DNA of 64,000 nucleotides from contig NZ_AP019781.1 of NCBI RefSeq assembly GCF_019669965.1, positions 1,923,092 through 1,987,091 on the forward strand. The letters run 5' to 3'. Position 1 is the stretch's first letter. Every line of letters starts with the position of its first letter. A program made the position numbers and the translations under genes. Below are positions 17,342-42,097 of this stretch, one piece after another. The DNA is from Methanoculleus chikugoensis (GTDB lineage Archaea; Halobacteriota; Methanomicrobia; Methanomicrobiales; Methanoculleaceae). The notes beneath the pieces are model-generated. The model was not told the origin of the DNA. It was given only the letters and a program-made list of their open reading frames with translations, and did not search any database.

Positions 17342-18787
17342 ATGACACCGATAGCCGCGCCTGATTTCCCTCCCGATCTCGAGTGGCATAACGTCGACCG
17401 CCCTTCCGTCGTCCGCGATCTCACCGGCAGGGTGGTGCTGCTCTCCTTCTTGACGTTCACCTGTTCGAACTGTATGCGACTGGCACCGGATCTCCGGCGG
17501 CTCGAGGAGAGGCATCCCGGGCTGGTGGTCGTCGAAGTGCATTACCCCGGGTTTGAATCCGCCGCGGTCGCCGGGAACTTCCGGGAGGCCGTGCGCCGCG
17601 CCGGGCTGGAGCATCCCGTCGCCATCGACCGCGAACGCCGGCTCTGGCAGGCCTTCGGGATCCAGGACTGGCCGACCTTCGTCCTCATCGACCCGGGAGG
17701 AAACGTGGTCGGGAAGACCGCCGCCGAAGGGCTCTACGGGAGGCTCAGCCCGAAGATCGATCGGATGACGGTAGAGTTCGGAGCGCAGGGTCTGATCGAG
17801 AGAGGACAGTTGTCGCCGGGAGCCGCACGGGAGACGGACCTGTATCGTCCCGGAAAAATTGCCGCGGACAACGTCGGGATGCGTCTCTTCATAAGCGATA
17901 CCGGCCATCACCGGATCGTCGTCGCCGGCGCTGACGGAAAGATCCTGGAGACGATCGGCTCCGGGGCTGCCGGGAACACCGACGGATCGTTCGGTGAAGC
18001 CGGATTCTACCTGCCGGAGGGTCTTATATTCGACGAGGAGGAGAGCGTCCTCTATGTCGCGGATACCGGAAACCACACGATCCGCCGGGTCTCCTGGACG
18101 GAGCGGGAGGTCGCGACGATCGCCGGGACGGGCCTTGCCGCCCCGTCGCCCGGCGGGCCGGGCACCGAGACCGCGCTGAACGCACCGCGGGATCTCGCGC
18201 TGCTCGGCGGCCATCTCTACATCGCGATGGCGGGGGCGAACCAGATCTGGCGAATGGATCTCGCCACCCGTGAGGTGGAGCCATATGCCGGGTCGGGCCG
18301 GGAGGGGCTGGCCGACGGGCCGCTCGGAAAGGCCGCCTTCACCGGGCCTGCCAGCATCGTCACCGACGGCGAGGCGCTCTACATCGCCGACAGCGGGGCT
18401 TCGGCGATCCGCCGCATCAAGCGGGGGATGGTCGAGACCCGCATCGGGCACGCCCCGGACGATTTCGGCGATCTCGACACCATCGCCCGGATGGCGCGCA
18501 TCCATCACCCGACAGGCATCGCCTACAGGGACGGGTCGCTCTATATCGCCGACACCGGCAACAACAAGATCAAGCAGTTCGACCTTGAGACCGGGTGGGT
18601 CCTCACCCGGGCAGGGGACGGCGACCGCGGCGACCGGGACGGGCTCTCGGGTGACGCAAGGCTGAACGAGCCGGGCGGTCTCGCCGATCTCGGGGGGCTC
18701 TGGTATATCGCCGATACCGGCAACCACACCGTCAGGGTCTACGACCCGGTTCACCATGTCGTCTCGACCCTGACGCTCTGGAAATAG
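17342..18787 (+). CDS. Thioredoxin-like and NHL beta-propeller protein (NHLRC2-like)
   Basis: The 481-aa protein joins an N-terminal thioredoxin/TlpA-like domain (about 1-150; redox motif CSNC in FTCSNCMRLAP, IQDWPTFVLIDPGG) to a six-bladed NHL propeller. The blades repeat the theme YVADTGNHTIRRVS, YIADSGASAIRRIK and YIADTGNNKIKQFD. No signal peptide is present, so it is cytoplasmic. The same architecture is known in NHLRC2 of animals and in bacteria; its role is not established. The gene stands 45 bp after the TIM-barrel gene in the same direction. Confidence 0.88.
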   Translation: MTPIAAPDFPPDLEWHNVDRPSVVRDLTGRVVLLSFLTFTCSNCMRLAPDLRRLEERHPGLVVVEVHYPGFESAAVAGNFREAVRRAGLEHPVAIDRERRLWQAFGIQDWPTFVLIDPGGNVVGKTAAEGLYGRLSPKIDRMTVEFGAQGLIERGQLSPGAARETDLYRPGKIAADNVGMRLFISDTGHHRIVVAGADGKILETIGSGAAGNTDGSFGEAGFYLPEGLIFDEEESVLYVADTGNHTIRRVSWTEREVATIAGTGLAAPSPGGPGTETALNAPRDLALLGGHLYIAMAGANQIWRMDLATREVEPYAGSGREGLADGPLGKAAFTGPASIVTDGEALYIADSGASAIRRIKRGMVETRIGHAPDDFGDLDTIARMARIHHPTGIAYRDGSLYIADTGNNKIKQFDLETGWVLTRAGDGDRGDRDGLSGDARLNEPGGLADLGGLWYIADTGNHTVRVYDPVHHVVSTLTLWK

Positions 18788-19045
18788 GCGTTCCGGGAGC
18801 AGTACTGGTGCGTTGTCGAGACTTCGTGACTTTGATCGTAGCGTGGTGCGCGGCGTGGCTTTCTTATTCCTTACTTTGAGGGGAGTATAGTTTCACTGTC
18901 CTATGTATAAACTACTTATTTCACTTATTAGTCAGGGGATTCAGAGGGGGCCAACTAAAGTTTACAACTGCTATGATCCCTTGTCTCAAGAGAAAAAGTG
19001 CTATTAACTGGAGTTGTCCAAATTGGAGGTATAATGGAGGGTTTG

Positions 19046-19840
19046 TTAGTTGTGTTTTCTTTCTTTCAGTATAAAAAAAAGTCTATACTCGTATCCTGTT
19101 TTGGGGTTTGAGATCTTCCATGTGATTTTATTTTTAAATGTGTTTATTTTAGGGTGCTCTTTGATCTTTTCCAAACTTTTTTCACTGGTTTTCATTCTTT
19201 CCTCTGCTGCATCGTATATCTGGAATATTAGAGGTTTACCATCTGCTTCAGTCTCATAAGGGAAAGAGATCGTGTATTTTTCCTTCATTTTCCCTTCAAG
19301 CAACACTCTAATAACCAATCGCTCTGTGTAACGATTTACACTAAAGGAGAAGAAATCGGTCTCACCATTGATAGCAGAGATATATGCCTTCGTCCTATAA
19401 CTGACTGCGAAGTCACAAATTTGATCCGGTTCAACGTGAAGTGGGATCTTAAACTCTTTCTTTTTACTAATTATCTGTCCATCCTGATTTATACTCTCTG
19501 AATATTTTGGTTCCTTAACTATGGTAGGGAAATGGATCGCCTTACCATTGTAGTTATATTCAATATCATCTATCCTCGGAACATCCTCAGGTGACGTTAT
19601 ATGCATATTGAATAAATTATATCGATCATCCATGTGATTGTGCAAGGTTCGCCTAATAGTTGTTAAAGCAGACTCATCCTCGCGCGACTGATCGTCAAAT
19701 TTGATCGTTTTCTCCACATAGAGCATACTTGCATCTAACGGGATTGAATGAAGTTTCCGAAAGTTTTCGTCAATTTTAATGACGTCTTTTACATAACAAG
19801 TGACTAAAACCATTACGGCTAAGAGCAAGATGCCAGCCAA
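19046..19840 (-). CDS. Unrecognised membrane-anchored protein of the AT-rich insertion
   Basis: I do not recognise this protein. From a TTG at 19840 it has 264 aa: one membrane helix (LLLAVMVLVTCYV), then a long hydrophilic, Lys/Glu-rich beta-like domain. The same frame stays open upstream to a stop at 19973-19975 and encodes a second helix (VAIIITTALIGYVFG) without any ATG or GTG. The natural start is therefore probably lost or upstream of the stop, and the gene may be 5'-truncated. Base composition and Lys-rich codons differ strongly from the neighbours, as expected for foreign DNA. Confidence 0.5.
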   Translation of the reverse strand: MAGILLLAVMVLVTCYVKDVIKIDENFRKLHSIPLDASMLYVEKTIKFDDQSREDESALTTIRRTLHNHMDDRYNLFNMHITSPEDVPRIDDIEYNYNGKAIHFPTIVKEPKYSESINQDGQIISKKKEFKIPLHVEPDQICDFAVSYRTKAYISAINGETDFFSFSVNRYTERLVIRVLLEGKMKEKYTISFPYETEADGKPLIFQIYDAAEERMKTSEKSLEKIKEHPKINTFKNKITWKISNPKTGYEYRLFFILKERKHN

Positions 19841-20166
19841 ATACTCTATCCGGACTAAAGTCTCATCGATTTGCCCGAAGACATACCCAATAAGTGCTGT
19901 TGTAATGATTATTGCTACAGGTTTTAGGATCGGATTATTTCCGTATAGTGCCCATCGCGTTATTCGATTTATCTAAATCACCCATCCAGCTAAAAAGAGT
20001 GTAAACATTGTAGTGGAGGGGGTTTTAACTGCCTTCCTTCTCGCCAACACTATACATCATACTTCGCACCTCGAACCTAGTTGATGCAGGTAATTTGATC
20101 CCCTTAGTGAGTAACATACAGCGTGTCCTATCATCATATAAAAGGGATTCGATATTTCGTCTTAAA

Positions 20167-20369
20167 TGGAAGTGCTACCACTTCCACTGCGATGAACCAA
20201 TGCAACCGGTGGGGCACAACTTTGACACGAGGCACTCAAGGTTAACTTGAGTTGTACTTCCAATTAGGGTCTAATTTTCCAGTAGATCCTGTTTTCCTCG
20301 TGCTTCATCGAGATATACTGGCCCTGCACCCCCTCGCTCCGATTAATGACCCATTGTCCCAAATGGGTC
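20167..20369. repeat. Three short hairpins in non-coding DNA of the insertion
   Basis: Perfect stems are seen at 20167-20186 (TGGAAGTG/CACTTCCA), 20234-20252 (ACTCAAG/CTTGAGT) and 20348-20369 (GACCCATT/AATGGGTC). The whole stretch 19976-20436 has no gene. The hairpins may belong to the right end of the mobile element or to a structured RNA. Confidence 0.45.
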
Positions 20370-20505
20370 ATGCGCAGCTCACGCCACGCACCAGTGCCGG
20401 TACATCTCCTAATAGTCACGAAGGCGCACCAGAACCCCGGGAGCAGTACTTTATGTAGGGATAACGAGAGAGGAGGAACGGAGCATAGAGTCTCCAGGGT
20501 GAGCC

Positions 20506-21126
20506 ATGCGAATGAACTATGCGCTGTTCATATCCGTTCTGGCTATCGGGGCGGCGGTTCTCATCTGCGGCTGCATGGGCCTGCCGGGAGACGGCGACCG
20601 GAACCAGACGAACGAGACGCCGGTCGGCGAGAACCTGACGGTCGGCGAGGTGCTGGCCCGGGACGGCAACTTCTCGGTGTTTGTCCGGGCGCTCGATGCC
20701 GCCGGACTCGGGGGGACGCTCGCCGGACCGGGGCCCTACACCGTCTTCGCGCCGACGGACGAGGCGTTCAGCCGGATCCCGGAGACCGCGATGGCAGAAC
20801 TCATCGACGACCCGAAGGGCATCCTCGCCGAGACCCTGCTCTACCACATGGCCCCGGGGAGGTATACGGCAGCCGGGATTGCTGCAAACGATACCGTTCC
20901 AACCGTCCAGGGCAGTCCGATCGCCGTCGACGCCGCCGGCGAGAGCGTGACGGTGAACGGCGCAAGGATAGTCCGGAGAGATATCCCTGCCGCGAACGGC
21001 GTCATCCATGCCATCGATGCGGTCATGATCCCGCCTGACGTGATCCTATTGCCGGCAGACGAGACCGTCGCGAACGTGACGGAGAATGAGACCGCTGTGA
21101 ATGTGACGGAGAACGTGACCGGGTGA
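20506..21126 (+). CDS. FAS1 (fasciclin) domain lipoprotein
   Basis: The 206-aa protein has a lipoprotein signal peptide (LFISVLAIGAAVLICGC), a short Asn/Thr linker and one FAS1 domain: GPYTVFAPTDEAFSRIP, TLLYHMAPGRYTAAG, and VIHAIDAVMIPP at its end. The tail repeats NVTENETAVNVTENVT, a likely N-glycosylated region. FAS1 domains act in adhesion at the cell surface. GGGTGA lies three bases before the ATG. It is the only FAS1 protein here with an export signal; the four further FAS1 genes at 27.5-29.6 kb lack one. Confidence 0.9.
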   Translation: MRMNYALFISVLAIGAAVLICGCMGLPGDGDRNQTNETPVGENLTVGEVLARDGNFSVFVRALDAAGLGGTLAGPGPYTVFAPTDEAFSRIPETAMAELIDDPKGILAETLLYHMAPGRYTAAGIAANDTVPTVQGSPIAVDAAGESVTVNGARIVRRDIPAANGVIHAIDAVMIPPDVILLPADETVANVTENETAVNVTENVTG

Positions 21127-37978: not shown

Positions 37979-38051
37979 GCTGCTATAGTGTAGGGGCCAA
38001 TCATGTCGGCCTTTCACGCCGACGACTGGGGTTCGAATCCCCATAGCAGCA
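37979..38051 (+). tRNA. tRNA-Glu (anticodon TTC)
   Basis: The 73-base gene folds as a cloverleaf: acceptor GCTGCTA pairs with TAGCAGC, anticodon stem TCGGC/GCCGA encloses loop CTTTCAC, and the T arm is TGGGG-TTCGAAT-CCCCA. Anticodon TTC reads Glu; the D arm with GGGGCCAATCAT fits archaeal tRNA-Glu. CCA is not encoded. An upstream TTTTTTATC at about 37930 is a candidate TATA element. The accessory region starts right behind its 3' end. Confidence 0.93.
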
Positions 38052-38363
38052 TCTGTTTTTGGGTTGTAAGTTCAGTTCACCATCATCAGTCCAGTCTGGA
38101 CGTTCTAACTGCTGCTCGCAGCATTTGACGACCAATATTCATCATATAAAGTCCAAATCTTGGAGAATCTTTTCATTCACTGAACACGAGTCCGACCTGC
38201 TTTCCAGATCTCTTCTTTTCTAATGCCAAAGGCTTCTTCAGGGTATCCATCCCCCGCTGACACCTATCAAAGTAGATATAACTCCCTTAAGAGGCAAATC
38301 TCTGCTTAGAAATGGCCCGACAAGACACCTTGTGCTAGCCGAGATCCCAAAAGTACTAATAAA
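38052..38363. other. 312-bp non-coding stretch after tRNA-Glu
   Basis: AT-richer than the core; no gene, tRNA or clear repeat is seen. I looked for a second copy of the tRNA 3' end as an attachment site and found none in the window. Confidence 0.4.
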
Positions 38364-38423
38364 GTGAGGCACATGAGCATCCATCCTGCTTGGCGGGTAC
38401 GGGAGGGAGCTTCACACAGCATG

Positions 38424-38870
38424 CAGAATGAATTCGAAAGTCCATCCGGCAACCCGACCATGGAACGACTCGAGGCTCAGATCCAGTGGTACAGCAGAAA
38501 GAGCCAGCACAGTCAGAAATGGTACAAGAGACTGAAGATAATGGCAATCATAGCAGCAGCTGCCATCCCAGTTTTTGCCGCCATATCAGTCCCGGCCAGC
38601 CTCATTGGAGGTCTTGGAGCATTAATTGTCATTTTGGAGGGGATCCAAGGCATGAACCAGTACCAACACAACTGGATTACTTACCGCTCGACAGCAGAGG
38701 CCTTAAAACACGAGAAATACCTTTTTCTCGGAAACGCTGGCCCCTATCAAGACACCGCGAAACCTCTCCCCTTACTCGCGGATCGCGTCGAAGCCCTCAT
38801 TTCTCGAGAACATGCCCAGTGGATCGCTCAGCTCGGGACCGAAGGGAGAGAGAAGAGGGGTGAAGAATAG
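38424..38870 (+). CDS. DUF4231 two-helix membrane protein (SLATT-like)
   Basis: The 148-aa protein has a conserved basic Trp/Tyr-rich start (IQWYSRKSQHSQKWYKRLK), then two close membrane helices (IMAIIAAAAIPVFAAI; ASLIGGLGALIVILEG), then a helical cytoplasmic tail with ITYRSTAEALKHEKYLFL. This is the DUF4231 layout, related to SLATT-type effectors found in bacterial conflict systems. Alternative upstream starts exist at 38364 (GTG) and 38373 (ATG); GGGAGGGAG lies 11 bases before ATG 38424. It sits alone next to tRNA-Glu and upstream of a convergent TIR gene. Confidence 0.75.
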   Translation, partial: QNEFESPSGNPTMERLEAQIQWYSRKSQHSQKWYKRLKIMAIIAAAAIPVFAAISVPASLIGGLGALIVILEGIQGMNQYQHNWITYRSTAEALKHEKYLFLGNAGPYQDTAKPLPLLADRVEALISREHAQWIAQLGTEGREKRGEE

Positions 38871-39041
38871 CAGGGCTACCAAAGTCTGCGGTGGGACACC
38901 CATGCTATGTATCCGATTGATTGCTCCGTCAGTAAAGCAGATCTAACTGCGTTGAGTCTGGAAAGAATGCAGAGCCAAACTGCAGGTCCGTACTATTCAG
39001 CTAAATACTGATAAGATCGTCACAAAATCTCACAATCCATA

Positions 39042-40742
39042 TCATGTCATCCCATTGTCACTATCCTTTAACTGGTTTGTAATGACATCGACGAGCTTTG
39101 TAATGTGATGCTCCAGAGGCGGGTTCACCGCATCCAGCCAGTGTCGCGGACCGATCAAGTATTCCATCTCTTTGGAAAGAGGGACTGCCTCCAGACGGAA
39201 CGGGATTATGGTAAGGCCCTTTGACATCGCTCTGCTCACCTCTGTCAAAACATGTGGAGAACTGTTCGACGACTTTGAAAAAACCAGCACCATTATTTTG
39301 CTCGCATCAATAGCATCAATAATTGATGCCTGATAATTTTGTCCCACAGGAGGGTTGCGAGGAGCAATCCAGCAGCGGATTTTATTAGATTCCAGTGCGT
39401 CACAGATTGCGTAGGCAGTTCTCTTATCATTCTTTGAATAACTTATAAAGACATCATGTGGCACCGAATCCTTGGCCGGACCATAGATAATTTCTTTGAC
39501 CTTCCGTTTTCTCAAAATATAAAAGACGGGAATTGCGCAGATTATAGCAGGAATAACAAGCAGCCAGATTGGAAGGCCCATAAGCGAGGGCAGGTAATCC
39601 TCGTGGACTTCTTTTGGTACTATAATGTAAGTTGAGTGCTCATCAACATCAGGGTCGATCTCAAGGGCTTTTGCATGATCTTCCCTTGCCAATGTGTGTT
39701 CACCAATACTTTCGTAGGCTACTGCCCGCTTGAAGTATGCATAGGCGTTTGTCGGATTCAACTCAATTGCTTTCGTAAGATCATGTACAGCAGCATCATA
39801 CCGACCAAGAGCAATATATGTGGCCCCACGATTGCTATAGCCAAAAGAAGTCCTCTCGGGGGTTAAATCTGCCGCGGAGAGTTCTATTGTCTCGTTACAT
39901 GCTTCGATCGACTCATTGTATCTTCCAAGGTGCTTACATGCAACTGAAAGAATGATATAGCCATTTGGTGAAAATGGAGTCAAATTGATCTCTTCTTCAG
40001 CGTAGTGTCTCGCATCCGCGTGGGCCCTTTTTTGAGAGGCGATACACCCCAATAAATTATATCCTCTAGAATTAGACTCATCCAGAGCAACAGCCGTCTT
40101 TGCATGTGCTTCTGCACTATTTAAATCGTTTCGAGCAAAATCAATAATCCCAAGGATAACGTAGGCATCTGCATAATCTGGATCAATTCGTAATGCTCTA
40201 TTTGCCTCATTCGTTGCGGATCGGAACTTTCCTTGATTTAAGAAGAAAAATCCTTTCTGAGCGTAAGGGTAAGGATTGTTTGGATCCAGGTCTATTGCCC
40301 TGTCATAATCCTGCAACGCGAGATCAGTCTCATTAAGTCCCATGTATGCCCCAGCTCTCCATACATAGTAATCTGCAAAGTAGGGATCGAGTTCTATTGC
40401 ACGGTTAAAGTCAGATGAAAATTGAACATATTGCCCCTTCGCTCCATAGCATACTCCTCGCATCGCATATGGGCGAGATAGACTATTATTGAGCTCAATG
40501 GCCTTTGTATAATCAGCGACTGCTTCATCGAACCGTGACATTTCAACGTAGGCATCGCCACGCTTAATATAGAGATTGGGATCATTTGGAGCTATTTCAA
40601 TGGCTTCTGACAAGTTAGTAACGTTTTCCAGCATAATCAGTCGTGCATTCGAAGCCACAAGGCCCGCAGACATAGTACCCACGAAAGACATTAGGAGCAG
40701 AGCAACTGCCAAGGATGGAAAGAGTGTATTCCACCTTTTCAT
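39042..40742 (-). CDS. TPR-transmembrane-TIR domain protein
   Basis: The 566-aa protein starts with a signal-anchor-like helix (LFPSLAVALLLMSFVG). About nine to ten TPR repeats follow (AVADYTKAIELNNS; YDRAIDLDPNNPYPYAQKG), then a membrane helix at about 388-408 (PIWLLVIPAIICAIPVFYI). The C-terminal TIR domain runs from about 430 to 555 (DVFISYSKNDKR; CWIAPRNPPVGQNY). Glu of LTEVSRAM (about 501) aligns with the catalytic Glu of NAD-cleaving TIR domains. TPRs would be outside and TIR inside. Codon use is AT-rich. ATG 40742 starts the signal segment; upstream codons to 40820 are unlikely. Confidence 0.88.
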   Translation of the reverse strand: MKRWNTLFPSLAVALLLMSFVGTMSAGLVASNARLIMLENVTNLSEAIEIAPNDPNLYIKRGDAYVEMSRFDEAVADYTKAIELNNSLSRPYAMRGVCYGAKGQYVQFSSDFNRAIELDPYFADYYVWRAGAYMGLNETDLALQDYDRAIDLDPNNPYPYAQKGFFFLNQGKFRSATNEANRALRIDPDYADAYVILGIIDFARNDLNSAEAHAKTAVALDESNSRGYNLLGCIASQKRAHADARHYAEEEINLTPFSPNGYIILSVACKHLGRYNESIEACNETIELSAADLTPERTSFGYSNRGATYIALGRYDAAVHDLTKAIELNPTNAYAYFKRAVAYESIGEHTLAREDHAKALEIDPDVDEHSTYIIVPKEVHEDYLPSLMGLPIWLLVIPAIICAIPVFYILRKRKVKEIIYGPAKDSVPHDVFISYSKNDKRTAYAICDALESNKIRCWIAPRNPPVGQNYQASIIDAIDASKIMVLVFSKSSNSSPHVLTEVSRAMSKGLTIIPFRLEAVPLSKEMEYLIGPRHWLDAVNPPLEHHITKLVDVITNQLKDSDNGMT

Positions 40743-41257
40743 AACAAACAGGACCTGTTCCCGGAGTATGATATATGTTTCCAGAGGCAGCGCATGTAAA
40801 AAAATATGCATAAGGCACATTCAGGCACGCTCCCATTGTGGGCGTCTTCGGGTCAAGTCCCCTTGCGGACAGTCCCGCTTCTGTCACAGCCGGGTATTCT
40901 CTTTTGGTTAAAGAGTATGGCTTGCTCTACGCTCGGAACGTGATATCATTTGAAATATGCTATCAGTTCGGCAAATAGATCTGCGATCGAGGAATTTTTT
41001 CGATATTTCGAAATCCCCAGTAGAGACGAGACAAACCTTTACTCTGATCTCTCCACATCGAAGAATCCGAATGATAACAACTACCCTCTTTGCAGACAGA
41101 AAAACCTTCAATAGCGATCACAGTGAGACGTCCTCTTTTCCGGTAAGGCGGCGGGAGAACCGATAACAATAGACAACGGTGTCTGGATTGGGGAGAATAC
41201 CGGGACGACCTCAAGGAGAGAGCGACTTTTTTATACAATAAACAGGTTTCGCCCCCC
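40743..41257. other. 515-bp region between TIR and CPBP genes with a gene scrap
   Basis: No intact gene. It contains a short acetyltransferase-like scrap (41160-41201) and a TATA-like TTTTTATACAA at about 41227-41238 positioned for a leaderless transcript of the CPBP gene at 41258. Confidence 0.5.
41160..41201 (+). pseudogene. Scrap of a hexapeptide acetyltransferase
   Basis: Fourteen codons read PITIDNGVWIGENT, matching the left-handed beta-helix motif of sugar O-acetyltransferases (compare ISIGNSVWIGADT in the intact gene at 43219). Nothing similar flanks it, so it is a remnant at most. Confidence 0.35.
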
Positions 41258-42097
41258 ATGAGACTGCAGGCCCCGAAGAACGGCACATCAAAACGGTCAC
41301 CGTTTCTCTTCTTCGCACTGGTTTACGTTCTTTCCATTCCGCTCTGGGTGCTCAATGTCATCTATCCGGTGAAACTTCCAATAGGGGATAATCTCCCCGC
41401 AACAGACATCGTGGCCACGTTTACTCCGATGATAGCGGCATCCATCCTTGTGTACCGGGAAGAGGGACTGTCAGGGGTGAAGAATCTCCTGAAACGGGCC
41501 TTCGATTATAAGAGGATCACCGAAAAAGCCTAGTATATCCCCATCATCGTCCTGACGCCGTTCATCTACGTGCTGACCTATGCGATAATGCGCCTCATCG
41601 GGCTGCCGGTCCCGGCCGGCTGGAACCCGCCCCTGTTTTCACCGCTCCTCTTCATTGCGTACTTCTTCGCCGCTGTAGGCGAAGAACTCGGCTATACCGG
41701 GTATGCCACCGATCCCATGCAGGCCCGGTACACCGCACTGACGGCCAGTATCATCATCGGGTTGGTCCACGCGGTATGGCACTTCCCGTCGATGCTTTCC
41801 ATGGGCATGAGTCCGGGATTGTTTCTATGGGGAGGAGTCATACTGGCCGTGAGTTTCCGGATTCTGACGGTCTGGATCTATAACAACACGGGAAAAAGCG
41901 TCTTTGCAGCCATACTCTTTCATGCCATGACCAATACCGGAAGGAGCATATTCCCCGGCAGCCGTTCAGCCTTCCAGTTATACGATGGGGCTATCGGCTA
42001 TGGGCTCATTGCTATCACGGCTGTGATCGTGGTGTTATTATGGGGAACGATGCTGACGCGATTCAGATTTGCTCACAGAGCGGATTCGGCCGGGTGA
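41258..42097 (+). pseudogene. CPBP family intramembrane protease, interrupted by an in-frame TAG
   Basis: Codons 1-91 (41258-41530) end at TAG 41531-41533; the same frame continues without loss to 42097 with the family core: GEELGYTGYATD, GLVHAVWHFPS and FHAMTNTG. Together they give a normal-length CPBP (Abi/CAAX protease-like) membrane protein of about 279 aa. The family often has Trp at the interrupted place, one base from TAG. The Arg of the usual EExxxR motif is Thr here. Whether it is dead or read through cannot be told; the downstream ATG at 41570 would give a truncated product. Confidence 0.75.

Follow-up and report, generated by a model that had tools for sequence, protein, structure and literature searches.

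A probable mobile insertion cassette with archaeal IS6/IS240-related ends in Methanoculleus chikugoensis

The locus and its features

The window, the whole stretch of 64,000 nucleotides analysed here, comes from a Methanoculleus chikugoensis genome that forms a single contig of 2,622,259 bases. An AT-rich block lies in the intergenic region that separates an NHL-repeat/thioredoxin-like gene from a fasciclin-like gene (both named by eye); inside it, GC content drops to 0.37-0.46 per 1-kb window compared with 0.62-0.68 around it. The 14-mer CCGGGAGCAGTACT occurs in exact copies at both edges (18793-18806 and 20437-20450), and the inverted segments GGTGCG, CTTCGTGACT and TGGTGCG(C/T)GGCGTG follow in identical inward order from each end. 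An earlier note had described this bounding direct repeat, the ordered inverted segments, and an unrecognised two-helix membrane protein as the sole gene, all of which are borne out. It had also counted three hairpins at the right end; two were located (Table 1) and the third was not found.

Elsewhere in the window, a tRNA-Glu is followed by an AT-rich stretch (37979-41500, GC 0.44-0.50), possibly an island at a tRNA gene. It contains a 592-aa protein (39042-40820, minus strand) in which TPR repeats and a TIR-like C-terminal domain were recognised by eye.

Table 1. Features of the block and its surroundings (positions in the window)
Feature	Position	Strand	Basis or remark
NHL-repeat/thioredoxin-like gene	17342..18787		
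Left target-duplication copy CCGGGAGC	18793..18800	.	Exact repeat; single copy in empty sites; 8 bp is the family norm
Probable AT-rich mobile cassette without transposase, 1636 bp	18801..20436	.	
Left terminal region: TIR AGTACTGGTGCG and second internal TGGTGCG..GGC motif at about 18843-18860	18801..18866	+	Ungapped alignment to an end of the G139 element; 16-end alignment
Cargo gene, 308 aa	19046..19972	-	Two N-terminal transmembrane helices and a soluble C-terminal part
Perfect 8-bp hairpin	20167..20186	.	
Perfect 10-bp hairpin ATGACCCATT/AATGGGTCAT	20346..20371	.	Just internal to the right terminal region
Right terminal region (inward): TIR GGTTCTGGTGCG and second internal motif copy	20371..20436	-	Matches to G043 and to the G139 element; 16-end alignment
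Right target-duplication copy CCGGGAGC	20437..20444	.	Exact repeat
AGTACT native flank, the same hexamer as at the outer edge of the left TIR	20445..20450	.	Present in the empty sites of G033, G003 and G005
Fasciclin-like gene	20506..21126		

An insertion with a target duplication

The host genome has a single copy of the block, and 34 congeners (genomes of the same genus) have none. In congeners both flanks (left to 18806, right from 20437) are adjacent and overlap by the repeat. The overlap spans 14 positions in G033 (C8, 185076-185089), G003 (C95, 4781-4794) and G005 (C7, 931-944), and nearly so in G014. Aligned, these sites read CCGGGAGCAGTACTTTATG in G003, CCAGGAGCAGTACTTTATG in G033 and CCGGGAACAGTAATTTATG in G014; CCGGGAGC is present as a single copy in G003 and with point changes in G033, G005 and G014. 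Since congeners show the flanks joined across a single repeat copy, the block is a real insertion that duplicated its target. The earlier note had proposed a search for such empty sites, and had been ready to drop the idea if all related strains carried the block with no empty site and no other genome had the ends as a unit; empty sites do exist, and the idea stands.

The duplication most likely comprises the 8 bp CCGGGAGC, so that the element would be 1636 bp long. This boundary is preferred because, in a gap-free alignment of the left end, position 18801 falls on the first base of the terminal repeat in a relative. The apparent 14-bp repeat is then CCGGGAGC plus AGTACT, a hexamer that is both the left terminus of the element and native flank. 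The 14-bp direct repeat of the earlier note is exact, while the duplication itself is most likely 8 bp with a 6-bp match beside it. That match is accounted for only in part: the left TIR of the window cassette starts with AGTACT where others start with GGTTCT, identity with the flank would arise by chance once in 4096, and the 8-bp boundary alone leaves it unexplained.

Tracing the ends to a transposon family

A search with the whole element against 60 relatives gave a sole, weak match, of 59 bp at the right end, in G043. This match has the same terminal GGTTCTGGTGCG, lies near a decayed IS240-type transposase, and proved to be a real end. For the family itself, genomes with matches to DDE_Tnp_IS240 (PF13610) were examined, together with one scan of genome contigs. 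The closest relative of the window ends is a 5855-bp element with a transposase in G139 (L178:3651-9505), which is flanked by the duplication CTCAACTG and has its transposase gene at L178:4690-5877 on the minus strand. One of its ends is GGTTCTGGTGCGTCTTAGTGACTTCGTGGCTTTGATCGTGGCGTGGTGCATGACGTGACTT, and to this end the left end of the window cassette can be aligned without gaps over 75 bp (z = 14.6 against shuffles). By the same measure, the right end reaches z = 12.9 with G043 and 10.1 with the other end of the G139 element, so that both window ends score far above chance. An alignment of 16 ends, the two from the window among them, runs to 66 columns without a gap, and 11 of its positions are invariant.

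The window element shares with this family the terminal repeat GGTTCTGnTGCG, with a second internal motif copy at about +43 (its left end deviating in the outer bases, AGTACT), and an 8-bp target duplication, with CCGGGAGC on both sides. The family's DDE transposase of ~395 aa was found neither among its ORFs nor anywhere in its genome, and the element is therefore filed as a non-autonomous derivative rather than a full member. An ends-model search of the same genome returned only the two window ends. The earlier note had recommended looking for other copies of the ends; related ends exist in G043, G139 and further genomes.

Two kinds of repeat resemble these ends. The terminal GGTTCTGGTGCG alone was rejected as a family marker because it is nonspecific: its 18 copies in G029 (L098-L113) belong to another dispersed repeat, in which TTCACCTTATTTTGCG precedes GGTTCTGGTGCG and which also occurs in G001, G008 and G020. 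In addition, short units (~78-92 bp) whose inverted ends resemble those of the family (GGTTCTGTTGCGTTGTCGGGACTT...GTCCCGTTAACGCAACAGCAC) were seen at L282, L283, L284, L290, L291 and L294 (G168, G141, G171, G139). They occur several times per genome without clear 8-bp duplications, and are possibly miniature forms or REP-like repeats.

Full-length relatives and other cassettes

Nineteen full-length archaeal IS6/IS240-related elements were delimited, of 2.6-8.8 kb and with 8-bp duplications. When the duplication length was left free, it came to 8 bp in nine elements and 9 bp in two; later element tables required an 8-bp duplication, and their counts are not independent evidence of its length. 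The elements have the TIR GGTTCTG(T/G/A)TGC and a second motif copy about 43 bp inward. Their transposase combines a CxC..CxH motif (SWIM-like, by eye), a zinc ribbon and DDE_Tnp_IS240, the last scoring above the Pfam cut-off. The IS1/IS1595-type zinc ribbon model NF050000 is above its cut-off in L187 and just below it in the other transposases. The family occurs in methanogens and, judged by transposase, also in Thaumarchaeota and Bathyarchaeota records.

Nearly every delimited copy of the family carries cargo, and 8 of the 19 full-length elements carry DNA-methyltransferase or restriction genes. These are an MvaI/BcnI-type endonuclease with a methylase (L176), type IIG enzymes (L186, L187), an N6 methylase (L160), a methylase fused to HNH (L167) and further methylases (L185, L233, L281). 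Other cargo includes an SDH-type protease-like gene, DUF1828/DUF6978 pairs and membrane proteins without an assigned function.

Running the ends model over 232 genomes of the order, followed by re-reading of the loci, yielded four further cassettes without a transposase. One of 1005/1007 bp is found in G159 and G186, apparently at one site, with one NYN-domain gene and the duplication AAAGAGAT. The others measure 1116 bp (G139, L278, with a 329-aa gene), 807 bp (G174, duplication TCTAAAAA) and 1609 bp (G104, with a pyrE-like gene and a duplication with one mismatch). All four are AT-rich like the window cassette, except where their surroundings are AT-rich as well. The cargo of the window cassette was found in no cassette copy elsewhere.

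The cargo gene

The only gene in the window cassette is an intact frame of 308 codons without stops. It starts with ATA (19970-19972), right after a stop, and the ribosome-binding-like GGTGAT lies 4 nt upstream (19977-19982). Four homologues, 27-33% identical, were found in G159, G100, G029 and G197, with an ATG near the same place; the ATA may thus be a decayed ATG or a non-canonical start. All five proteins have two N-terminal hydrophobic helices. Searches with the cargo protein gave no match in Pfam, PADLOC, NCBIfam or PHROGs, among PDB sequences, or in viral contigs, and a single-sequence AlphaFold model (pLDDT 40) is too poor to use.

The homologues sit in AT-rich single-gene islands, around which (L197-L200) no family ends were found. 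Next to the G197 homologue, at L200:6540-10466, lie a type I restriction subunit and a PDC-S02 candidate defence protein. The cargo is an accessory gene travelling between methanogens. A role in defence, by analogy with the company that the family keeps, would be a guess.

Interpretation of the block

The block is very probably a mobile insertion cassette (MIC), with one cargo gene placed between archaeal IS6/IS240-related ends and no transposase gene. It has the features of one: a cargo gene between intact IS-type ends, a target duplication and no transposase. This reading is drawn from the empty sites, the end matches, the 16-end alignment, the 8-bp duplications in relatives and the other transposase-less cassettes. 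As for its arrival, a ~395-aa transposase from a full-length relative, with its SWIM-like zinc motif, zinc ribbon and DDE domain, would have acted in trans, most likely by binding the repeated TGGTGC..GAC motifs at each end. A cut staggered by 8 bp, in the intergenic region of the host, would then have received the cassette, leaving CCGGGAGC on both sides; the path would have been either simple insertion or, as for IS26, copy-in with later resolution. With no family transposase detectable in its own genome, the window cassette is now stranded.

The origin of AGTACT invites a second account, in which an 8-bp duplication was followed by template switching at the short repeat, so that sequence from the neighbouring flank replaced the six outermost bases of the left TIR. 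This would account for the change of GGTTCT to exactly AGTACT, next to a flank that is native in relatives. However, there is no intermediate or second case, and a similar 5-base extension in L281 has intact TIRs and fits target choice instead, making overwriting rather unlikely. Somewhat less likely still is that the block is a dead remnant: a full transposon from which an internal deletion removed the transposase, and which can no longer be mobilised. The ATA start, set against ATG in four homologues, and the loss of any transposase from the genome would suit such decay, but the 308-codon frame is intact, and comparable single-cargo cassettes in other genomes have kept their ends and duplications, so the form itself appears to be mobile.

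It is very improbable that the target duplication is truly 14 bp long, the work of a different kind of integrase such as a casposase, and that the left TIR begins at 18807. The exact repeat is indeed 14 bp and is found once, nearly complete, in the empty sites. Nevertheless, the two ends, taken together, match those of IS6-related elements rather than those of casposons. Alignment of the left end already starts at 18801, so that six bases, four of them matching, would fall within a 14-bp duplication, and relatives of the ends have 8-bp duplications. Casposon identity was rejected on ends and gene content, with cas1 and polymerase (polB) absent from the element's ORFs. Site-specific integration by a tyrosine recombinase at a 14-bp att core would explain a single copy in the empty site and a direct repeat at each end, but can be practically discounted, as there is no tRNA target and no integrase, and the transposon-type TIRs are found again at sites that have no relation to one another, where the 8-bp repeats are unrelated as well.

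Stacking and target choice

Directly outside the 8-bp duplication, another family end was found in 7 of the 24 delimited elements, often with the identical 8 bp again; for comparison, 0.13% of flanks would be expected to match one motif at 6 or more of its 7 bases. For example, an array in G139 (C154; L178:3643-9513 and L278:1006-2137) reads CTCAACTG-element-CTCAACTG-cassette-CTCAACTG-GGTTCTGG, with CTCAACTG three times. Further stacked elements are L186, L177, L157 (both sides), L163 and L167. Given these 7 cases, insertion immediately adjoining resident family ends seems to be favoured.

In stacked cases, the apparent direct repeat also exceeds 8 bp (10-24). L281 matches at 5 of 7 bases and has a total repeat of 13, with a 5-base extension and intact TIRs; the window flank reads AGTACTT and the total repeat is 14. 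Both look like insertions at TIR-like native sequence, which is the preferred, though not proven, account of the 14-bp appearance.

A broader picture may be drawn tentatively, with somewhat less than an even chance of being right. Archaea would possess a dedicated IS6-related cargo-transposon system, in which full-length and transposase-less modules, carrying restriction-modification and other accessory genes, are interchangeable. New modules would be stacked by targeting a resident TIR and re-duplicating the same 8 bp, building defence islands stepwise, and the window cassette would have landed at a chance TIR-like site.

Relation to known systems

The family resembles IS6 (IS26/IS240) in its GGTTCTGTTGC-like TIR, its 8-bp target repeats and its DDE_Tnp_IS240 catalytic domain. 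Textbook IS6 members are ~700-890 bp long, and a review of the family gives about 800 bp with 8-bp repeats (PMC7986276), whereas the elements described here span 2.6-8.8 kb with cargo. Textbook archaeal IS6 transposases have 211-235 aa, compared with ~395 aa and extra N-terminal zinc modules here. Moreover, although the NCBIfam IS6 model is the best whole-protein match to the relatives' transposases, they fail its curated cut-off (107-113 vs 125 bits) and so fall outside IS6 sensu stricto. Within IS6, one member with a passenger gene and two gene-less MITEs (227 and 336 bp) are on record (PMC7986276). Extra N-terminal domains are reported only in clostridial members, and the 37 archaeal members, which are distant, have been proposed for separation from the family (PMC6807381). 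According to a survey of mobile elements in Thaumarchaeota from 2019 (PMC6563490), composite transposons with passenger genes are known in bacteria and were not detected in archaea.

Like MICs and MITEs, which have IS ends and a target duplication, lack a transposase and need one in trans, the window cassette has such ends and a duplication around its cargo and would depend on outside help. The difference is that single-gene cassettes of an IS6-related archaeal group are involved here; the MICs known so far belong to other IS families. The full-length relatives are similar to transporter insertion sequences (tIS), which hold one transposase and unrelated passenger genes within IS ends, while the window element has a passenger gene only. 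Methanogens are known to harbour casposons, whose duplications measure about 14-15 bp. Casposons share methanogen hosts and, at first sight, a long target duplication with the window element, which nevertheless has no cas1/polB or casposon ends and whose relatives have 8-bp duplications.

No prior description of cargo-carrying archaeal IS6-type transposons was found in the literature searched, which excluded subscription journals and ISfinder. The parent family of the window cassette is under-described.

Significance

The idea of a transposed unit with inverted ends and without a transposase gained support from the empty sites, the end matches and the ORF content. The earlier note had offered two explanations for it, a new non-autonomous element class of methanogens or cargo moved by the transposase of another element. 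The latter is the better of the two. The former is partly supported: the non-autonomous part holds for the window cassette, while the "new class" does not, its ends belonging to archaeal IS6/IS240-related transposons that retain a transposase in other methanogens.

The window cassette is a modest member, and its value is as a thread leading to the family. This family is a simple vehicle that moves defence and accessory genes between archaea, and its recognisable end signature helps to find more of them. The self-targeting rule, if true, would explain how defence and accessory genes pile up.
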